This document shows, one piece after another, positions 25,464-32,831 of a stretch of 64,000 nt of DNA. Source of the DNA: Brachybacterium vulturis. GTDB lineage: Bacteria; Actinomycetota; Actinomycetes; Actinomycetales; Dermabacteraceae. A program made the translations under genes and the position numbers. The notes beneath the pieces are model-generated. The model had not been told where the DNA came from and made no database searches. It worked only from the letters and a program-made list of their open reading frames with translations. The first letter of the stretch is position 1; each line of letters begins with the position of its first letter. The DNA lies in assembly GCF_002407185.1 (NCBI RefSeq), contig NZ_CP023563.1:372001-436000 (forward strand). The letters are read 5' to 3'.

Positions 25464-26108
25464 TCAGCGAATCGGCCATCCGAGGCGTCCCCGGACCCGC
25501 ACGGCCAGGGTCAGCACATCGGCCTGCTCGAGAGTGCGCGAGAAGTCGGGAGCGGTCGGGAACGCAGCGGCGGAGCGGGCGAAGAGGACGACCCTCCGAT
25601 CCCCGCTGATCGTGGAGGGGACGAGGAGTCCGTCGACCTGCTCTCCGAGCTGCTCATGGATGGCTGCGGCCCATGCGCGGCAGGTGCTCTTCGGGGCCTG
25701 CGCGAGGGAGGCGGAAGCGCCGTGCCGTACGGCCCAGTCGCCGCTCCCGTCCCCGCCGGTGAGGTTCAACAGCTCCAGGGGACGGGTGGGTCGCCAGCCG
25801 GACAGCGCTCTGTCCCCGGTGAGCGTGATCGCCCGGTCGCCCTGGAAGACCTCGGCGAAGGCGGTCGTGTACTCAGGCGCCGCATAGGAGACGCCGGCGG
25901 TGGAGCGAGCAGTGAGCGGGCCCGGCTGCGGGTCCCACCCCTTGCTGCGCAGCGGGCCGTTCCACCGCAGCTCGTCCCACGCCGACGGATGCCTCCCGGC
26001 CACCGTATGGATCCGCCACAGGGGTCCGTCGTATCGGGTGACGGCGTCCGGGAACAGCGCGAGAGGGACCGCCGGACGCCGAGGATTCTTCGCCGACGCT
26101 GTGCTCAT
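25464..26108 (-). CDS. RES-domain toxin (NAD+ phosphorylase type)
   Basis: 214 residues. RES-family toxins deplete NAD+ by phosphorolysis. The conserved Arg is in PLWRIHT (R32), the Tyr in GVSYAAPEY (Y75) and the Glu in AFAEVF (E86); a later conserved Ser/Thr region reads LLVPSTISGDRRVVLF. The start overlaps the antitoxin stop by 4 bp (ATGA), the usual antitoxin-first order for RES/Xre pairs. The pair is more AT-rich than the neighbouring metabolic genes, as expected for mobile toxin-antitoxin modules. Confidence 0.88.
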   Translation of the reverse strand: MSTASAKNPRRPAVPLALFPDAVTRYDGPLWRIHTVAGRHPSAWDELRWNGPLRSKGWDPQPGPLTARSTAGVSYAAPEYTTAFAEVFQGDRAITLTGDRALSGWRPTRPLELLNLTGGDGSGDWAVRHGASASLAQAPKSTCRAWAAAIHEQLGEQVDGLLVPSTISGDRRVVLFARSAAAFPTAPDFSRTLEQADVLTLAVRVRGRLGWPIR

Positions 26109-26704
26109 TCAAAACCGAGTTCGTCGACCAGGGCGACGACGACATCCACGGGGCCTCCCCGGAGCAACCATTGCGCCGGGGAGCGCGCGTCGAGTTCGTC
26201 GTGCGGTGTCGTCATGAAGCGCTGGATCGACAGCGGGTGGAGGTGTCCGGGGAAGGCGGGCACGACCTCTCGGAGCCCCGGGACCACCTGCTCTCCCTCG
26301 AACTGCCAAGCAGGGAAACGGGTGGTGCGCCCGCCGCCCGAGGGCAGGGCATAGAGGTCTCCGACCGCCTTCGAGCGGCGGATGCTCGCATCCTTGCGGC
26401 CCAGTCGCTCCGCCACCTCGGCTGTCGTCAGCGACGCGGCCCATGCCTGCTCCTCCGCTGCCGCACGATCCCGGGCCACCTGGTTCTGAGACGCCGCGCG
26501 GGCCTGCGGAGCGAGATCCTCCTCGGTGAGGTCCGTGGTCTCCAGCAGGAAGGATCGCTCCCCCGCGGAGAGCGCCTCGGAGGTGGACTCGCTGGCCTCG
26601 CGCAGGATGTCCAGGAGCGCATCGACGGTCAGCGGGTTGCCGCGCCGCTCCAATGCGCCCTCGAGACGGGCCGTGTACTCGTGGGTCGCGCCGCTCATGC
26701 ACAT
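26105..26704 (-). CDS. Xre/MbcA-ParS-like antitoxin of the RES pair
   Basis: 199 residues. The middle contains a helix-turn-helix-like segment SLTTAEVAERLGRKDASIRR followed by a strand pair ending TRFPAWQFEG. The C-terminal ~35 residues (MTTPHDELDARSPAQWLL, GGPVDVVVALV) are the toxin-binding antitoxin domain found in RES-Xre systems. It overlaps the toxin start. The ATG at 26704 or the one two codons later could start it; neither has a Shine-Dalgarno, and the operator palindrome abuts the start, so a leaderless message is likely. The product should repress its own promoter. Confidence 0.82.
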   Translation of the reverse strand: MCMSGATHEYTARLEGALERRGNPLTVDALLDILREASESTSEALSAGERSFLLETTDLTEEDLAPQARAASQNQVARDRAAAEEQAWAASLTTAEVAERLGRKDASIRRSKAVGDLYALPSGGGRTTRFPAWQFEGEQVVPGLREVVPAFPGHLHPLSIQRFMTTPHDELDARSPAQWLLRGGPVDVVVALVDELGFE

Positions 26705-26805: not shown

Positions 26806-28116
26806 CTACGGCCGCGGCAGACCCAGGTGTTCGCGCAGGGTGCTCCCGGCGTACTCGCGCCGGAACCTGCCGCGCTCCTGCAGCACCGGCACGACCTGGT
26901 CGACGAAGTCCTCGATCCCTCCCGGGAGGGTGGGCGGCATGAGGTTGAAGCCGTCGGCCGCGCCCGCATCGACCCAGCGCTCGATCTCGTCGGCCACCGT
27001 CTCCGGGGTGCCGATGACCGTGGCATGTCCCCCGCCGGCTGCGAGGAAGCCCAGCAGCTCGCGCACCGTCGGCCGTGCGGTGCGGATGATCCGCAGCACC
27101 GTGGCGTAGCGCCCCTTCGGGCCGGTGAACTCCTCCAGCGGCGGCAGCGGCGGGACGGGAGCATCCAGCTCCCACCCCGAGGTGTCCTGGCCCACGAAGA
27201 ACGCGAGCTGGCGGAGGGAGTGCTCGACGGGGAGGCGGGAATGGAGGTCCGCCTGCAGGCGCCGGACCTCCTCCTCGGTCGAGCCGACGTAGGTGACCAG
27301 CCCCGGCATGACCGCGATCAGATCCGGATCACGGCCCAGCGCGGCGGCGCGGGCACGGACGTCCGTGCGGTAGGCGTGCGCCGATTCGAGGTCCCAGGCC
27401 ACCGCGTAGATCCCCTCGGCCCAGCGGGCGGCGAGGTCGCGCCCCGGCTCCGAGGCCCCGGCCTGGAACAGCACCGGGCGCCCCTGCGGCGGCGTCGGCA
27501 CGTTCAGCGGGCCGTCGACCGCGAAGGAGTCACCATGATGCTCCAGCGGACGGAGCATGGAGGGGTCGACGTAGACGCCGCCCGGATCGGCGCGGATGCT
27601 CTCGCGCGGCCACGAGTCCCACAGGCCGTGGAGCACCCGGAGGAACTCCTCCGCCGTGGCGTACCGCTCCTCATGGGCGGGCAGCGCGGCCATGCCGTGG
27701 TTGCGGGCCTCCGCGTCGGTCATCGAGGTGACCACGTTGATCCCGGCCCGGCCGTGGGAGATGTGATCGAGGCTGGCGAGCAGGCGGGCCGCATGGAACG
27801 GATCCCAGAAGGTGCTCGAGACCGTGGTGACCAGGCCGATCCGCTCGGTGGCACGCGCCAGCGCCGTGAGCACCGTGATCGGCTCCAGGAACCACGTCGG
27901 CCCGCGCTCGGCCCCGGCGGGGGCGATCGACTGGCCGTCGGCGAGGAAGATCGCATCGAGCCGGCCGCGCTCGGCGATCTGCGCGAGCTCCTCCCAGTAG
28001 GTGATGTCGCCCAGGCGCAACACCGCGGAGCCGGGCGCGCGCCAGGCCGCACCGTGGTGACCGACCGCGTGCGCGAACAGGTTCAGCCGCACGTGGCGGC
28101 GAGCGGGTGCCGGCAT
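26806..28116 (-). CDS. NtaA/SnaA/DszA-family flavin-dependent monooxygenase
   Basis: 436 residues, the usual length of the NtaA/SnaA/DszA group of bacterial-luciferase-like FMNH2-dependent monooxygenases. Typical segments: HVRLNLFAHAVGHHGAAWR, ERGRLDAIFLADGQSI, GRAGINVVTSMTDAEARNHG, and PVLFQAGASEPGRDLAARWA. Family members oxidise nitrilotriacetate, streptogramin intermediates and dibenzothiophene sulfone and need a separate flavin reductase, not seen here. The gene overlaps the SDR stop/start (TGATG), so it is the second gene of an operon led by a TPP riboswitch. A role in thiamine-related sulfur or pyrimidine chemistry is inferred from that control only. Confidence 0.9.
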   Translation of the reverse strand: MPAPARRHVRLNLFAHAVGHHGAAWRAPGSAVLRLGDITYWEELAQIAERGRLDAIFLADGQSIAPAGAERGPTWFLEPITVLTALARATERIGLVTTVSSTFWDPFHAARLLASLDHISHGRAGINVVTSMTDAEARNHGMAALPAHEERYATAEEFLRVLHGLWDSWPRESIRADPGGVYVDPSMLRPLEHHGDSFAVDGPLNVPTPPQGRPVLFQAGASEPGRDLAARWAEGIYAVAWDLESAHAYRTDVRARAAALGRDPDLIAVMPGLVTYVGSTEEEVRRLQADLHSRLPVEHSLRQLAFFVGQDTSGWELDAPVPPLPPLEEFTGPKGRYATVLRIIRTARPTVRELLGFLAAGGGHATVIGTPETVADEIERWVDAGAADGFNLMPPTLPGGIEDFVDQVVPVLQERGRFRREYAGSTLREHLGLPRP

Positions 28117-28919
28117 CAGTCCTTCACCAGCCCGCCGTCGACGACGAGGTTCTGCCCGGTGATCGCCCGCGACCAGGGCGAGGCGAAGAACAGCACGGCA
28201 TCGGCGAACTCGGTGGGCGTGGTCACCGACTGCAGCGGGGTGCTCGCGGCGATCGCGTCGAAGACGGCCTCGGGTGTCGCGGAGCTCGCGTCGGTGGTGC
28301 GCAGCAGGCCGCCGCTGAGCATGTTCACCGTGACGCCGCGCGGGCCGAGATCGGCGGCGAAGGTGCGGGTCAGCGACAGCAGCGCCGCCTTGGCCGCGGT
28401 GTAGTCGTGGTAGGGCACCACCGGATGCTGGAAGAGGTTGGTCCCGATGTTGATGACGCGGCCCGAGCCCGCCCGGTCGAAGCCCGGCAGCGCTGCCTGG
28501 ATGGTGTTCAGCGCCCCCTGCACGGCGCTCGAGAACTGGGCCGAGAAGGCGTCGTAGTCGATCTCGTGCGCCTTCGCCCTCGCGTCCCCGTCGAACGAGA
28601 AGCCGCTGAGCGCATTGTTCACGACCGTGCTGATGGGGGCGTCGAACTCGGCCTGGGCCGCCTCGAACAGCGCCTCCACCTCGCTGCGGTCCCTGACGTC
28701 GGCGCGCACCGCGACCGCTCGGCCGGGGTGGGGGGCTGCGAGGTCCCGGGCGGCGTCCGCGCTGGTGAGGTGGTTGATGACGACGCGAGCGCCTTCACGC
28801 AGCAGGGCTTCGGTGATCGCGCGGCCGAGGCCGCGGGCGCCGCCGGTGACCAGGACGACCTGGTCGGCGAGGGCGGGGATGCTCTGGGACGGCGCGGGTG
28901 CGGAGGAGGGGGTGGTCAT
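28116..28919 (-). CDS. SDR family oxidoreductase (FabG-like) under a TPP riboswitch
   Basis: 267 residues, classical short-chain dehydrogenase. Cofactor motif LVTGGARGLGRAI (~residues 22-35), NNA motif in VVNNALSG, and the catalytic YxxxK in YHDYTAAK preceded by a Gly/Asn-rich segment INIGTN. NAD(P)H-dependent, cytoplasmic. ATG chosen after AAAGGA; an upstream in-frame ATG has no ribosome site. First gene of the operon with the flavin monooxygenase, behind a ~200-nt leader with a TPP aptamer on the same strand. Substrate unknown; the annotation FabG would be misleading. Confidence 0.88.
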   Translation of the reverse strand: MTTPSSAPAPSQSIPALADQVVLVTGGARGLGRAITEALLREGARVVINHLTSADAARDLAAPHPGRAVAVRADVRDRSEVEALFEAAQAEFDAPISTVVNNALSGFSFDGDARAKAHEIDYDAFSAQFSSAVQGALNTIQAALPGFDRAGSGRVINIGTNLFQHPVVPYHDYTAAKAALLSLTRTFAADLGPRGVTVNMLSGGLLRTTDASSATPEAVFDAIAASTPLQSVTTPTEFADAVLFFASPWSRAITGQNLVVDGGLVKD

Positions 28920-28958
28920 GGGTGGTTCGTCCTTTCGATGACGGGATGCGAGCCCCCG

Positions 28959-28981
28959 GGATGCCGGCGGGACCGGCATCC
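28959..28981 (-). promoter_or_regulatory. Leader hairpin between the TPP aptamer and the SDR gene
   Basis: GGATGCCGG and CCGGCATCC form a perfect 9-bp stem with a 5-nt loop, in the leader between the minus-strand aptamer and the SDR start codon, ending ~40 nt before the start. No U-tract follows. It may be the expression platform (terminator or anti-terminator partner) of the riboswitch. Confidence 0.55.
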
Positions 28982-29122
28982 GGGCAGGGGAGGGAGAGCG
29001 CTCCTCGGGTGGAGGGGCGGATCGACGGGGGTCGGCTCTGATCCCGTTCTCGAGGACGGTGGGCGCGGGAGCGTCATGGCACGTGGCGTCGGCGCGGGTG
29101 TGGCCAGCGCGCAGCAGTTCAT

Positions 29123-29207
29123 CGACGACATTCCTCCGCGAGTACGAACTCGATCAGGTTCACCGGGTGTGTTCTCAGCCCTGTCGGGCACCCCGTGTCG
29201 GTCGTCG
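29123..29207 (-). promoter_or_regulatory. TPP riboswitch (THI element) for the SDR-monooxygenase operon
   Basis: Read on the minus strand, the region has all hallmarks of the thiamine pyrophosphate aptamer in order: closing stem CGACGAC...GTCGTCG, GGGGTGCCC, the core GGCTGAGA (plus-strand 29173-29180), ACCC, GAACCTGATC (29152-29161) and the 3' segment CGCGGAGGAA. The orientation puts it 5' of the SDR and NtaA/DszA-type monooxygenase genes, about 200 nt upstream of the first start codon. It should repress them when TPP is plentiful. Confidence 0.92.
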
Positions 29208-29330
29208 ACTATACCCATGGCCGCGGCGGCGGGGCGGCGCGTCCCGTTTCAGCAGCCGCAGCGGTCGTGCGGAGGGAGCGGTCTCCGCCCCGGTGCGCGG
29301 CGCGTTCCGCTGCGGGTAGGCTGGCCCGGT

Positions 29331-29413
29331 TCCGTGGGAGCCCGATCGTCGGGCTGAGAGGGCCTCGTGCCGACCACCAGCACTGGATGCGGGTCATGCC
29401 GCCGTCAGGAGGA
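29331..29413 (+). promoter_or_regulatory. TPP riboswitch for thiOSGF
   Basis: Plus-strand elements: GTGGGAGCCC, the core GGGCTGAGA (29351-29359), GGATGCGGGTCATGCCGCCG and the closing AGGAGGA. The last element is also the Shine-Dalgarno of thiO, seven bases before its ATG at 29420, so ligand binding would close the P1 stem over the ribosome site and block translation directly. The GAACC part of the consensus is shortened, as in many actinobacterial TPP aptamers. Confidence 0.88.
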
Positions 29414-29419
29414 CCGCTC

Positions 29420-30583
29420 ATGCAGCACATCGCCGTCGTCGGCGCCGGGATCATCGGACTGCTCACCGCACTGGAGCTGAGACGCCGCGGTCACCGGGTC
29501 GAGATCCGTTCCATCGGCGTGGCCGAGCAGGCCACCCATGCGGCGGCCGGGATGCTCGCCCCCACCAGCGAGGTCCAGTTCGGCCAGCACTCGCTGGGGC
29601 CTCTGATGAGGAAGGCCGCGAGCCACCACCGCGCGCTGGCCGCCGAGCTCGGCCTGCGCACCGAGAAGCCGCTGGGCTACCGCGATACTCCGACCCTCGT
29701 CGTCGGCCGCGACCGGTCCGACCTCGAGGCCCTGCGGCTTCTCGCGCAGGAGCAGTGCGCGGCGGGTGCCGAGGTCGAGGAGCTCACCTCCGCGCAGCTG
29801 CGTGGCCGCGCCCCGACGCTGGCCCGGCACGTGGCCGGCGCGATGCTCGTCCCCCGTGACCACCAGGTGGACCCCCGCACCCTGGTCGCCGCCGTCCTCG
29901 ATGCCCTGACCGGCCCGGGCCGACCGGGCGACGGGCCGCCCGTCCCCCTCACGACCGGCAGCCGCGTCGCCTCCACCGACGAGATCGACGCCGACCGGAT
30001 CGTTCTCACTGCCGGCCTCGGCACCTCCGCGATCGACGGACCCCATCGGGTGCTCGACCTGTCGCTGCGACCGGTCCACGGTGACATCCTGCGCCTGCAC
30101 GTCCCCGACTCCGCCCTGCTGCCCGGGGAGGACAACCTGCTGGACCACACGGTCCGAGCCCTGGTCCGCGGTCGTCCCCTCTACCTGGTGCCGCGCGACG
30201 GCGGCCTCGTGCTCGGAGCCACCAGCCGTGAGGACGCCATGACCGGCGCATCGGCCGGCGGCGTGCTGACTCTGCTGCAGGATGCGGCCGAGATCCTTCC
30301 CGCGATCCGGGACACCGAACTGCGCGAGGTGACCGCTCGCGCCCGTCCCGGCACCCCGGATGACCTCCCGCTGCTGGGACCGGTGCCGGGACACCCGGAC
30401 GTGATCGTCTCGACCGGCTATCACCGCCACGGCATCCTGCTCTCGGCCTGGGCGGCGGCTCGCACCGCCGATCTCCTCGAGGCCGACCCCGGGGCGCCGC
30501 CGCCCGCGGAGATGGCCGGGGAGCTCGCAGCCGTCGATCCAGCCCGTTTCACCACCACGTCCCCACTCCAGGAGGCCTCATGA
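29420..30583 (+). CDS. thiO: Glycine oxidase ThiO
   Basis: 387 residues, FAD-dependent amine oxidase that converts glycine to dehydroglycine for thiazole formation. The dinucleotide motif IAVVGAGIIGLLTALEL is at the N-terminus; AAAGMLAPTSEVQFG is the ThiO-type flavin loop; the C-terminal LPLLGPVPGHPDVIVSTGYHRHGILLS region (split here by wording) is the second FAD site. ATG follows the AGGAGGA inside the TPP aptamer. It overlaps thiS by 4 bp. Use of glycine rather than tyrosine (ThiH) fits an aerobic organism. Confidence 0.93.
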   Translation: MQHIAVVGAGIIGLLTALELRRRGHRVEIRSIGVAEQATHAAAGMLAPTSEVQFGQHSLGPLMRKAASHHRALAAELGLRTEKPLGYRDTPTLVVGRDRSDLEALRLLAQEQCAAGAEVEELTSAQLRGRAPTLARHVAGAMLVPRDHQVDPRTLVAAVLDALTGPGRPGDGPPVPLTTGSRVASTDEIDADRIVLTAGLGTSAIDGPHRVLDLSLRPVHGDILRLHVPDSALLPGEDNLLDHTVRALVRGRPLYLVPRDGGLVLGATSREDAMTGASAGGVLTLLQDAAEILPAIRDTELREVTARARPGTPDDLPLLGPVPGHPDVIVSTGYHRHGILLSAWAAARTADLLEADPGAPPPAEMAGELAAVDPARFTTTSPLQEAS

Positions 30584-30822
30584 GCATCGTCGTCCACGTC
30601 AACGGCGAGAACCTTGACCTGCCCGACGCCGTCACGGTCCGCGACCTGGTGGCCGACCGCCTCGGTCGCGCTGTCGGCGACGACGGGCGAGCGTGCGACG
30701 GCACCCCGCTCGGCGTGGCCATCGCCGTCGACGAGGCCGTCCTGCCGCGCAGCAGCTGGGCCCACACCCCGCTCACCCCCGATGCCCGGTACGAGCTCGT
30801 CACCGCCGTCCAAGGAGGATGA
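30580..30822 (+). CDS. thiS: Sulfur carrier protein ThiS
   Basis: 80 residues, ubiquitin-like fold, ending in the diagnostic Gly-Gly (TAVQGG) that is adenylated by ThiF and turned into a thiocarboxylate. It starts VVHVNGENLDLPDAVTVRDL and is slightly longer than usual (about 66 residues) because of an insertion after the first helix (GRAVGDDGRACDG). ATGA overlap with thiO; thiG starts 3 bp after its stop. Confidence 0.93.
   Translation: MSIVVHVNGENLDLPDAVTVRDLVADRLGRAVGDDGRACDGTPLGVAIAVDEAVLPRSSWAHTPLTPDARYELVTAVQGG

Positions 30823-32831
<2,009 letters not shown>

Follow-up and report, generated by a model that had tools for sequence, protein, structure and literature searches.

The 64-kb stretch of Brachybacterium vulturis DNA analysed here (NZ_CP023563.1, positions 372,001 to 436,000; hereafter the window, with positions counted from its first letter) harbours on its minus strand a thiamine pyrophosphate (TPP) riboswitch at the head of a two-gene operon, which codes for a short-chain dehydrogenase/reductase (SDR) and a luciferase-like flavin monooxygenase (LLM). 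A role of this operon in thiamine metabolism is well supported by the riboswitch, the operon layout, their recurrence in other bacteria and the thiamine-gene context, all computed directly from the sequences. Vitamin B1 is chemically fragile, and the synthesis of its pyrimidine half is beyond many bacteria. It is tempting to propose that the operon mediates a TPP-repressed salvage of this pyrimidine half, an idea to which we give somewhat less than an even chance, judging mainly from operon context. The riboswitch is of a known kind, as are the two protein families; the pathway is predicted to be a new branch of thiamine salvage.

A TPP riboswitch heads the SDR-LLM operon

A cmscan search of the whole window, on both strands and with 4227 families, returned two TPP elements and no other family above gathering score. 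The minus-strand element (29205-29114) matches RF00059 with 65.0 bits (gathering cut-off 54.3, E 1.7e-10). Its Rfam alignment and an alignment of 29 elements display the conserved core CUGAGA and ACCUGA and the closing stem, and a genome-wide search recovers the element at G000:C1:401114-401205 (G and L numbers designate genomes and loci throughout). The preliminary description of this DNA had placed a THI aptamer here, pointing away from the thi genes, and the score indeed lies above the covariance threshold that it had named. Its interval, 28116-29207, covered the aptamer and the SDR gene, but the operon runs on to 26806. A chance aptamer match is ruled out by the score, the conserved core and the recurrence described below. 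The operon comprises the following features:

29114-29205, minus strand: TPP riboswitch aptamer (THI element) at the head of the SDR-LLM operon (RF00059, 65.0 bits)
28920-29113, minus strand: leader of 194 nt between the aptamer and the SDR start, from the sequence, with AAAGGA at 28935-28930
28116-28919, minus strand: SDR of 267 residues, NCBIfam PRK08642 (NF006393, 411.9 bits; YTAAK at 174-178)
26806-28116, minus strand: LLM flavin monooxygenase of 436 residues, NtaA/DmoA family (TIGR03860, 506.9 bits)

A single base at 28116 is common to the SDR stop codon TGA and the LLM start codon ATG. We read the SDR from the ATG at 28919, for which AAAGGA is a plausible ribosome site; the automatic start at 28979 looks too early, since relatives align from about 28919. 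In the leader, a scan for intrinsic terminators gave none, and translational control of the operon is therefore assumed; a promoter scan of the same leader found nothing either.

The LLM, first described as an NtaA/DszA-type flavin monooxygenase, scores above the TIGR03860 cut-off of 279.7 bits. Its AlphaFold model (predicted local distance difference test, pLDDT, 92.6) has the bacterial-luciferase-like fold of the NtaA/DmoA family. The best Foldseek match is CmoJ/YtnJ (6ask; E 2.1e-45, template-modelling score 0.85, 40% identity), followed by BdsA and Burkholderia NtaA, and these three are tied when compared with the LLM by VIA-align (Z 49.4 to 50.5). As for the SDR, it passes NF006393 with a cut-off of 292 bits, its score having been obtained on the longer frame from 28979. 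Alignment with relatives reveals a YTAAK motif (Y174-K178), and a Thr occupies the position that is usually Ser. SDRs without an Asp at the end of the second strand are expected to use NADPH; no Asp ends this strand here, and NADPH is therefore the expected cofactor. The structure model of the SDR is only fair (pLDDT 79.6).

The TPP-SDR-LLM arrangement recurs in three phyla

Recurrence of the linkage in other genomes had been put forward as a check, and it is found in Actinomycetota, Pseudomonadota and Bacillota: a TPP element stands at the head of the operon in all 47 SDR-LLM loci read, window included. Rfam detected 33 of these elements at gathering score and a purpose-built covariance model alone the other 14; this model was trained on such elements and hence leans toward them, its best control match being 13.2 bits (15 loci). 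Conversely, none of 26 LLM loci without an SDR of this kind has a TPP element, an absence that is weak for L024, where only 119 bases precede the LLM gene, and for the short loci L107 and L111. One of these 26, L037, adjoins a remote SDR (26% identity). In a further eight distant LLM loci (L056-L060 and L063-L065, 4.3 kb long), which are short and counted outside the 26, the purpose-built model gave no match.

The genome scan yielded 35 LLM loci, 26 of them at 61% identity or above, and 24 of the latter adjoin an SDR gene. Rfam found the TPP element in 23 of these 24, and the purpose-built model alone found that of L014 (73.9 bits). No TPP element was found in the two loci without SDR (L022, L024) or in nine distant LLM loci (35-41% identity). 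A class-wide sample of 394 genomes contributed five more LLM loci at 65-69% identity, all five with SDR and TPP element, and three further Brachybacterium loci have both as well (L047 in G008, L052 in G019, and L062 in G003, where the LLM is split over two frames). The SDR is present in 18 of 151 sampled Corynebacterium genomes. Among 15 SDR loci from this genus, the ten with a one-piece LLM and L151, whose LLM is broken, all have a TPP element by the purpose-built model; L152 has the element and, next to two transposase-type genes, the SDR, but no LLM. We also read nine of the 16 plasmid records having the SDR and three of the 136 having the LLM. The complete trio occurs on plasmids of Rhodococcus, of Pseudochrobactrum among the Pseudomonadota and of Mesobacillus among the Bacillota; the elements score 65.7, 70.0 and 82.0 bits, respectively.

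A frame break or stop affects five of the 47 loci, in the LLM (L062, L151, L027, L030) or the SDR (L012), and in L015, L019 and L020 the SDR gene is separated from the TPP element by other genes. Brachybacterium massiliense harbours two inverted TPP-SDR-LLM copies (L006 and L008) about 19 kb apart on the same contig (NZ_FXXB01000005.1). The Corynebacterium genome G063 combines a TPP-SDR locus with a broken LLM (L151) and an unbroken, more diverged LLM without SDR or visible TPP element (L024).

A single group of TPP-linked LLMs

A 72-row tree unites all 39 TPP-linked LLMs in one group of 41 (support 100/100). This tree leaves out L008 and L051 as copies, L027 and L151 as partial sequences, and the LLMs of G003 and G008; it and a second, 39-row tree were midpoint-rooted for drawing only. 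The other refuting case named in the preliminary description, related genomes in which the operon lacks the element and its genes belong to an unrelated pathway, did not occur: LLM relatives without a TPP element lie outside the group save for two nested Corynebacterium variabile-type LLMs (L022, L024), which we read as losses. The three plasmid LLMs stay inside the TPP-linked group of the 39-row tree (22 rows, 100/99), the placement of the Mesobacillus LLM within it being unsure because of its long branch. A scatter of unrelated LLMs under TPP control is ruled out by both trees. Branching within the group departs from taxonomy, with Brachybacterium sp. 97_S4 placed with Kocuria and two Mycobacteriaceae beside them; in our reading, operon and riboswitch were transferred jointly. 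W75, H140 and D242 are among the residues common to 18 aligned TPP-linked LLMs and absent from 12 outside relatives.

The class-wide sample contains 71 places with LLMs at 44-51% identity. In the 15 of these that were read, no TPP element and no adjoining SDR of this kind were found; a permease match lies beside the LLM in all 15, the ATPase match of L111 being 5 kb off, and an NMT1-family binding protein is present in the seven tested. The LLMs at 47-51% identity (L105-L119) adjoin Ssu/Tau-type ATP-binding cassette (ABC) transporter genes, with a TauD dioxygenase gene in both loci tested for it (L105 and L109), which suggests that they serve the use of organosulfur compounds. About 5 kb upstream of two Arthrobacter relatives lies an S-adenosylmethionine (SAM) riboswitch (L035:106-208 and L038:178-267). 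The genes following it include ABC-ATPase-like ones, perhaps another case of a riboswitch tied to the LLM family.

Thiamine genes join the operon in relatives

Thi genes or a transporter are found in the operons of relatives, not in that of the window itself. The gene order is TPP-thiM-thiE-SDR-LLM in Zimmermannella and Ruania and TPP-SDR-LLM-thiM-thiE in Kocuria, and thiM lies within the operon at three LLM loci (L013, L015, L020). Mycobacterium sp. 141 has a TPP element followed by genes for a binding protein, a permease, an ATPase, the SDR and the LLM. Its binding protein (NMT1, 180.5 bits) is closest in the PDB to 4nmy, then to ThiY (3ix1), which binds N-formyl-4-amino-5-aminomethyl-2-methylpyrimidine (FAMP), and to THI5. 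In Zimmermannella, whose genome has neither ThiC nor TenA, a binding protein 75% identical to it follows a TPP element of its own. Furthermore, five of five plasmid loci of Neorhizobium, three Rhizobium and Gemmobacter (L188-L192) have the order TPP-thiM-thiE-thiD-SDR, with the SDR gene last, right after that of the hydroxymethylpyrimidine (HMP) kinase; their thi genes are annotated in two loci and were recognised through similarity in the three from Rhizobium. Where annotated, the SDR of these plasmids is labelled fabG or 3-oxoacyl-acyl carrier protein (ACP) reductase. The SDRs of L184, L185, L189 and L192 pass the NF006393 cut-off, as does that of L186, a Caballeronia locus free of thi genes.

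We inventoried thiamine genes in 32 genomes having SDR-LLM, including G003 with its split LLM and the incomplete G028 (85%) and G030 (74%). Matches were accepted at E <1e-90 for ThiG, <1e-20 for ThiM and ThiE, and 1e-8 for TenA; the curated cut-offs are reached by no ThiM, by not every ThiE, and for TenA by nine of 58 genomes. ThiM is in two pieces in G028 and G064; weaker matches were not counted, nor was a ThiC fragment of 45 residues in G050. ThiE is present in 32/32 genomes. Intact ThiC is missing from 20, and the genome of the window itself gave no match for it. ThiM is missing from ten genomes, all of which have ThiG, and ThiG from eight, all of which have ThiM. Genomes with ThiG and no ThiC number 13, against a single one with the reverse combination. 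TenA is missing from eight genomes, and six have neither ThiC nor TenA (G019, G025, G026, G054, G059, G141). Two of these, G019 and G141, also lack ThiM and possess ThiG and ThiE, so the pyrimidine is the half not made there.

Within Brachybacterium, we compared 35 genomes without correction for kinship, after dropping three incomplete genomes without LLM and keeping two incomplete ones with it. ThiG is present in 6/11 genomes with LLM vs 3/24 without (p 0.015, or 0.020 minus the two incomplete LLM genomes), and ThiE in 11/11 and 21/24, respectively.

Proposed salvage of the pyrimidine half and its alternatives

The preliminary description had left open whether the operon serves salvage or breakdown, and of thiamine or of which of its halves. 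Both the control by TPP and the thiamine role have strong support. Riboswitches of the TPP class normally lower expression when TPP is plentiful; this habit and the presence of ThiE in all 32 genomes favour salvage, and the gaps in ThiM (10/32) and ThiC (20/32) favour the pyrimidine half. We infer that TPP lowers expression of the operon in this manner, that the pathway runs towards thiamine from the pyrimidine rather than the thiazole, and that its product enters as HMP by way of an aldehyde. Low TPP would open expression of the SDR and LLM genes, as expected from the behaviour of the riboswitch class. With O2 and reduced flavin mononucleotide (FMNH2) supplied by a general flavin reductase, the LLM might act on a damaged or adducted thiamine pyrimidine, 4-amino-2-methylpyrimidine-5-CH2-X, by oxidising its 5-CH2 group; X could be S-cysteine, sulfonate, or an amine or formamide such as that of FAMP. 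Oxidative cleavage of the CH2-X bond would release X and leave a pyrimidine aldehyde, which the SDR, as a putative pyrimidine-aldehyde reductase, would convert to HMP. ThiD would then phosphorylate HMP, and ThiE would couple the product to thiazole phosphate.

CmoJ converts N-acetyl-S-benzylcysteine sulfoxide to benzaldehyde and a sulfenic acid (PMC10863075). As the pyrimidinylmethyl group is a benzyl analogue, this suggests a pyrimidine aldehyde as the LLM product. CmoJ and the sulphur context of LLMs outside the TPP-linked group make S-adducts and the sulfonate plausible substrates, and the ThiY-like transporter does so for FAMP. In its boldest form, which we consider unlikely, the proposal would amount to a third, O2/FMNH2-dependent HMP route beside ThiC and THI5, and to the only HMP source of bacteria lacking ThiC and TenA; its starting material would be either products of B1 breakdown that are used by no known enzyme or a compound that had never belonged to thiamine.

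Several observations weigh against pyrimidine salvage. ThiC is kept in 12 of the 32 genomes, and import of HMP alone could serve those that lack it. The rule that the LLM replaces ThiC is unsupported within Brachybacterium, where ThiC is not significantly rarer in genomes with LLM (2/11 vs 8/24, p 0.45, or 0.69 without the two incomplete LLM genomes). In the same genus, the ratio of genomes with only ThiG to those with only ThiC is 5:1 with LLM vs 2:7 without (p 0.04), but without these two genomes the contrast drops to p 0.09. G014 (B. massiliense) has ThiC, no ThiG and two copies of the operon. No flavin reductase was found among the genes tested beside the window operon. The SDR also occurs without these associations: L141, L143 and L147, three of the 15 Corynebacterium loci, have neither LLM nor a TPP element before the SDR, and the two Caballeronia loci read have no LLM, no thi genes and no TPP element before the SDR. 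Its position behind thiM makes a thiazole role for this enzyme conceivable as well. Finally, its NCBI name is 3-oxoacyl-ACP reductase, although the genetic context argues against this activity.

Repair of whole damaged thiamine is another, rather unlikely, explanation. The LLM and SDR would together undo an oxidation or an S- or N-adduct, for instance a thioether formed by the thiol of ring-opened thiamine, and so give thiamine back with no need for ThiD or ThiE. Enzymes of the LLM family break C-S and C-N bonds, CmoJ removes the alkyl group from S-alkyl cysteine derivatives (PMC10863075), and repair would fit the presence or absence of ThiC, ThiG and ThiM alike; however, the operons with thiM and thiE, those of thiM-thiE-thiD-SDR type and the pyrimidine-type transporter all point to precursors. 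Salvage of the thiazole half, from an oxidised or carboxylated thiazole to hydroxyethylthiazole for ThiM, appears quite improbable. It could account for thiM in the operon at three LLM loci and at the five plasmid loci, for the gene complement of G014 and for the eight genomes in which ThiM is present without ThiG, but not for the ten that lack ThiM and have ThiG, as the use of carboxythiazole is described as requiring ThiM in an alga (PMC5899164). Lastly, the two genes might serve sulphur scavenging or detoxification and have merely fallen under a TPP element. The Ssu/Tau-type transporter and TauD genes next to related LLMs and the SAM riboswitches at L035 and L038 would be in keeping with this, yet the conservation of the TPP element in 47/47 loci across three phyla, the grouping of these LLMs in the tree and the repeated joining of thi genes make it very improbable.

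Relation to known systems

NtaA, EmoA, DmoA, DszA/BdsA and RcaE act on chelators, dimethyl sulfide, dibenzothiophene sulfone or riboflavin. The LLM of the window resembles them in its fold and in scoring above the TIGR03860 cut-off, but the 18 TPP-linked LLMs aligned have W75, H140 and D242, which the 12 relatives compared outside the group do not. Its best structural match, CmoJ (YtnJ), the alkylcysteine sulfoxide C-S monooxygenase of Bacillus subtilis, belongs to the same NtaA/DszA type of FMNH2 monooxygenases, whereas the LLM is under TPP control together with an SDR in place of the Cmo cysteine-salvage genes, for which no aimed search was made.

The chemistry of TenA and YlmB is hydrolytic. 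In contrast, the SDR-LLM route is proposed to be oxidative and involves other protein families, and a quarter of the SDR-LLM genomes inventoried (8/32) show no TenA even at E 1e-8. Both routes would nevertheless return pyrimidines to HMP, as TenA/YlmB/ThiXYZ salvage does with those from thiamine breakdown (PMC10470507), and a ThiY-like binding protein adjoins the operon in L019. The same paper, a marine survey, found no FAMP-type TenA_E from Actinobacteria among its ocean data (PMC10470507).

Our search of the open-access literature brought up no account of the SDR-LLM pair; the words 'monooxygenase' and 'dehydrogenase' never occur in the main text, supplements aside, of a 2013 survey of TPP regulons (PMC3766115). 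A TPP-headed short-chain oxidoreductase has been described nonetheless: cg0825 of Corynebacterium glutamicum has a TPP riboswitch upstream and a leader detected by RNA-seq, as reported in two papers (PMC4046766, PMC3890552). One of the two guesses at a link with thiamine, and the passages on this gene give no function in either and mention no LLM. The element before cg0825 has 63.5 bits, and the protein is very likely the same SDR, an ortholog of that of the window. The neighbouring gene number, cg0824, designates the transposase tpn5a (PMC5711897), and the LLM may therefore have been lost in C. glutamicum.

If the proposal is correct, an oxidative branch that turns damaged pyrimidine into HMP would be added to B1 salvage, orphan TPP-controlled dehydrogenases such as cg0825 would be explained, and the set of genomes called pyrimidine auxotrophs would change. 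It would also provide a short, quickly assayable list of substrates for two enzymes with uninformative names.

Other TPP elements and neighbouring genes

Divergent from the SDR-LLM operon, the second riboswitch of the window heads the thiO-thiS-thiG-thiF genes:

29324-29427, plus strand: second TPP riboswitch (Rfam, 61.2 bits)
29420-30583, plus strand: thiO, glycine oxidase (TIGR02352, 272.9 bits, cut-off 250.8)
30580-30829, plus strand: putative thiS, from its position between thiO and thiG only, end approximate
30826-31632, plus strand: thiG, thiazole synthase (PF05690, 330.2 bits)
31629-32831, plus strand: thiF/moeZ-like adenylyltransferase with rhodanese domain (PF00899 and PF00581)

The sequence AGGAGGA (29407-29413) and the thiO ATG (29420) fall within the riboswitch match, so direct masking of the ribosome site is likely, which suggests translational control of thiO. 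The spacing differs from that of the minus-strand element, which lies 194 nt from the SDR start.

Five TPP elements lie in the B. vulturis genome, a single contig of 3.80 Mb. Of the three outside the window, two head importer operons with PF09819 and an ABC ATPase, one also with CbiQ, which we take to be YkoEDC-like. The last heads thiD-tenA, a major facilitator superfamily (MFS) gene, thiM and thiE (G000:C1:1110500-1118900, L042); the MFS transporter between thiD and thiM is a candidate carrier of thiamine or a precursor. Downstream of the LLM gene in the window, a gene for a 199-residue protein without family match (26105-26704, minus strand) overlaps a RES-domain gene (25464-26108, minus strand), and the two are reminiscent of a RES toxin-antitoxin pair.

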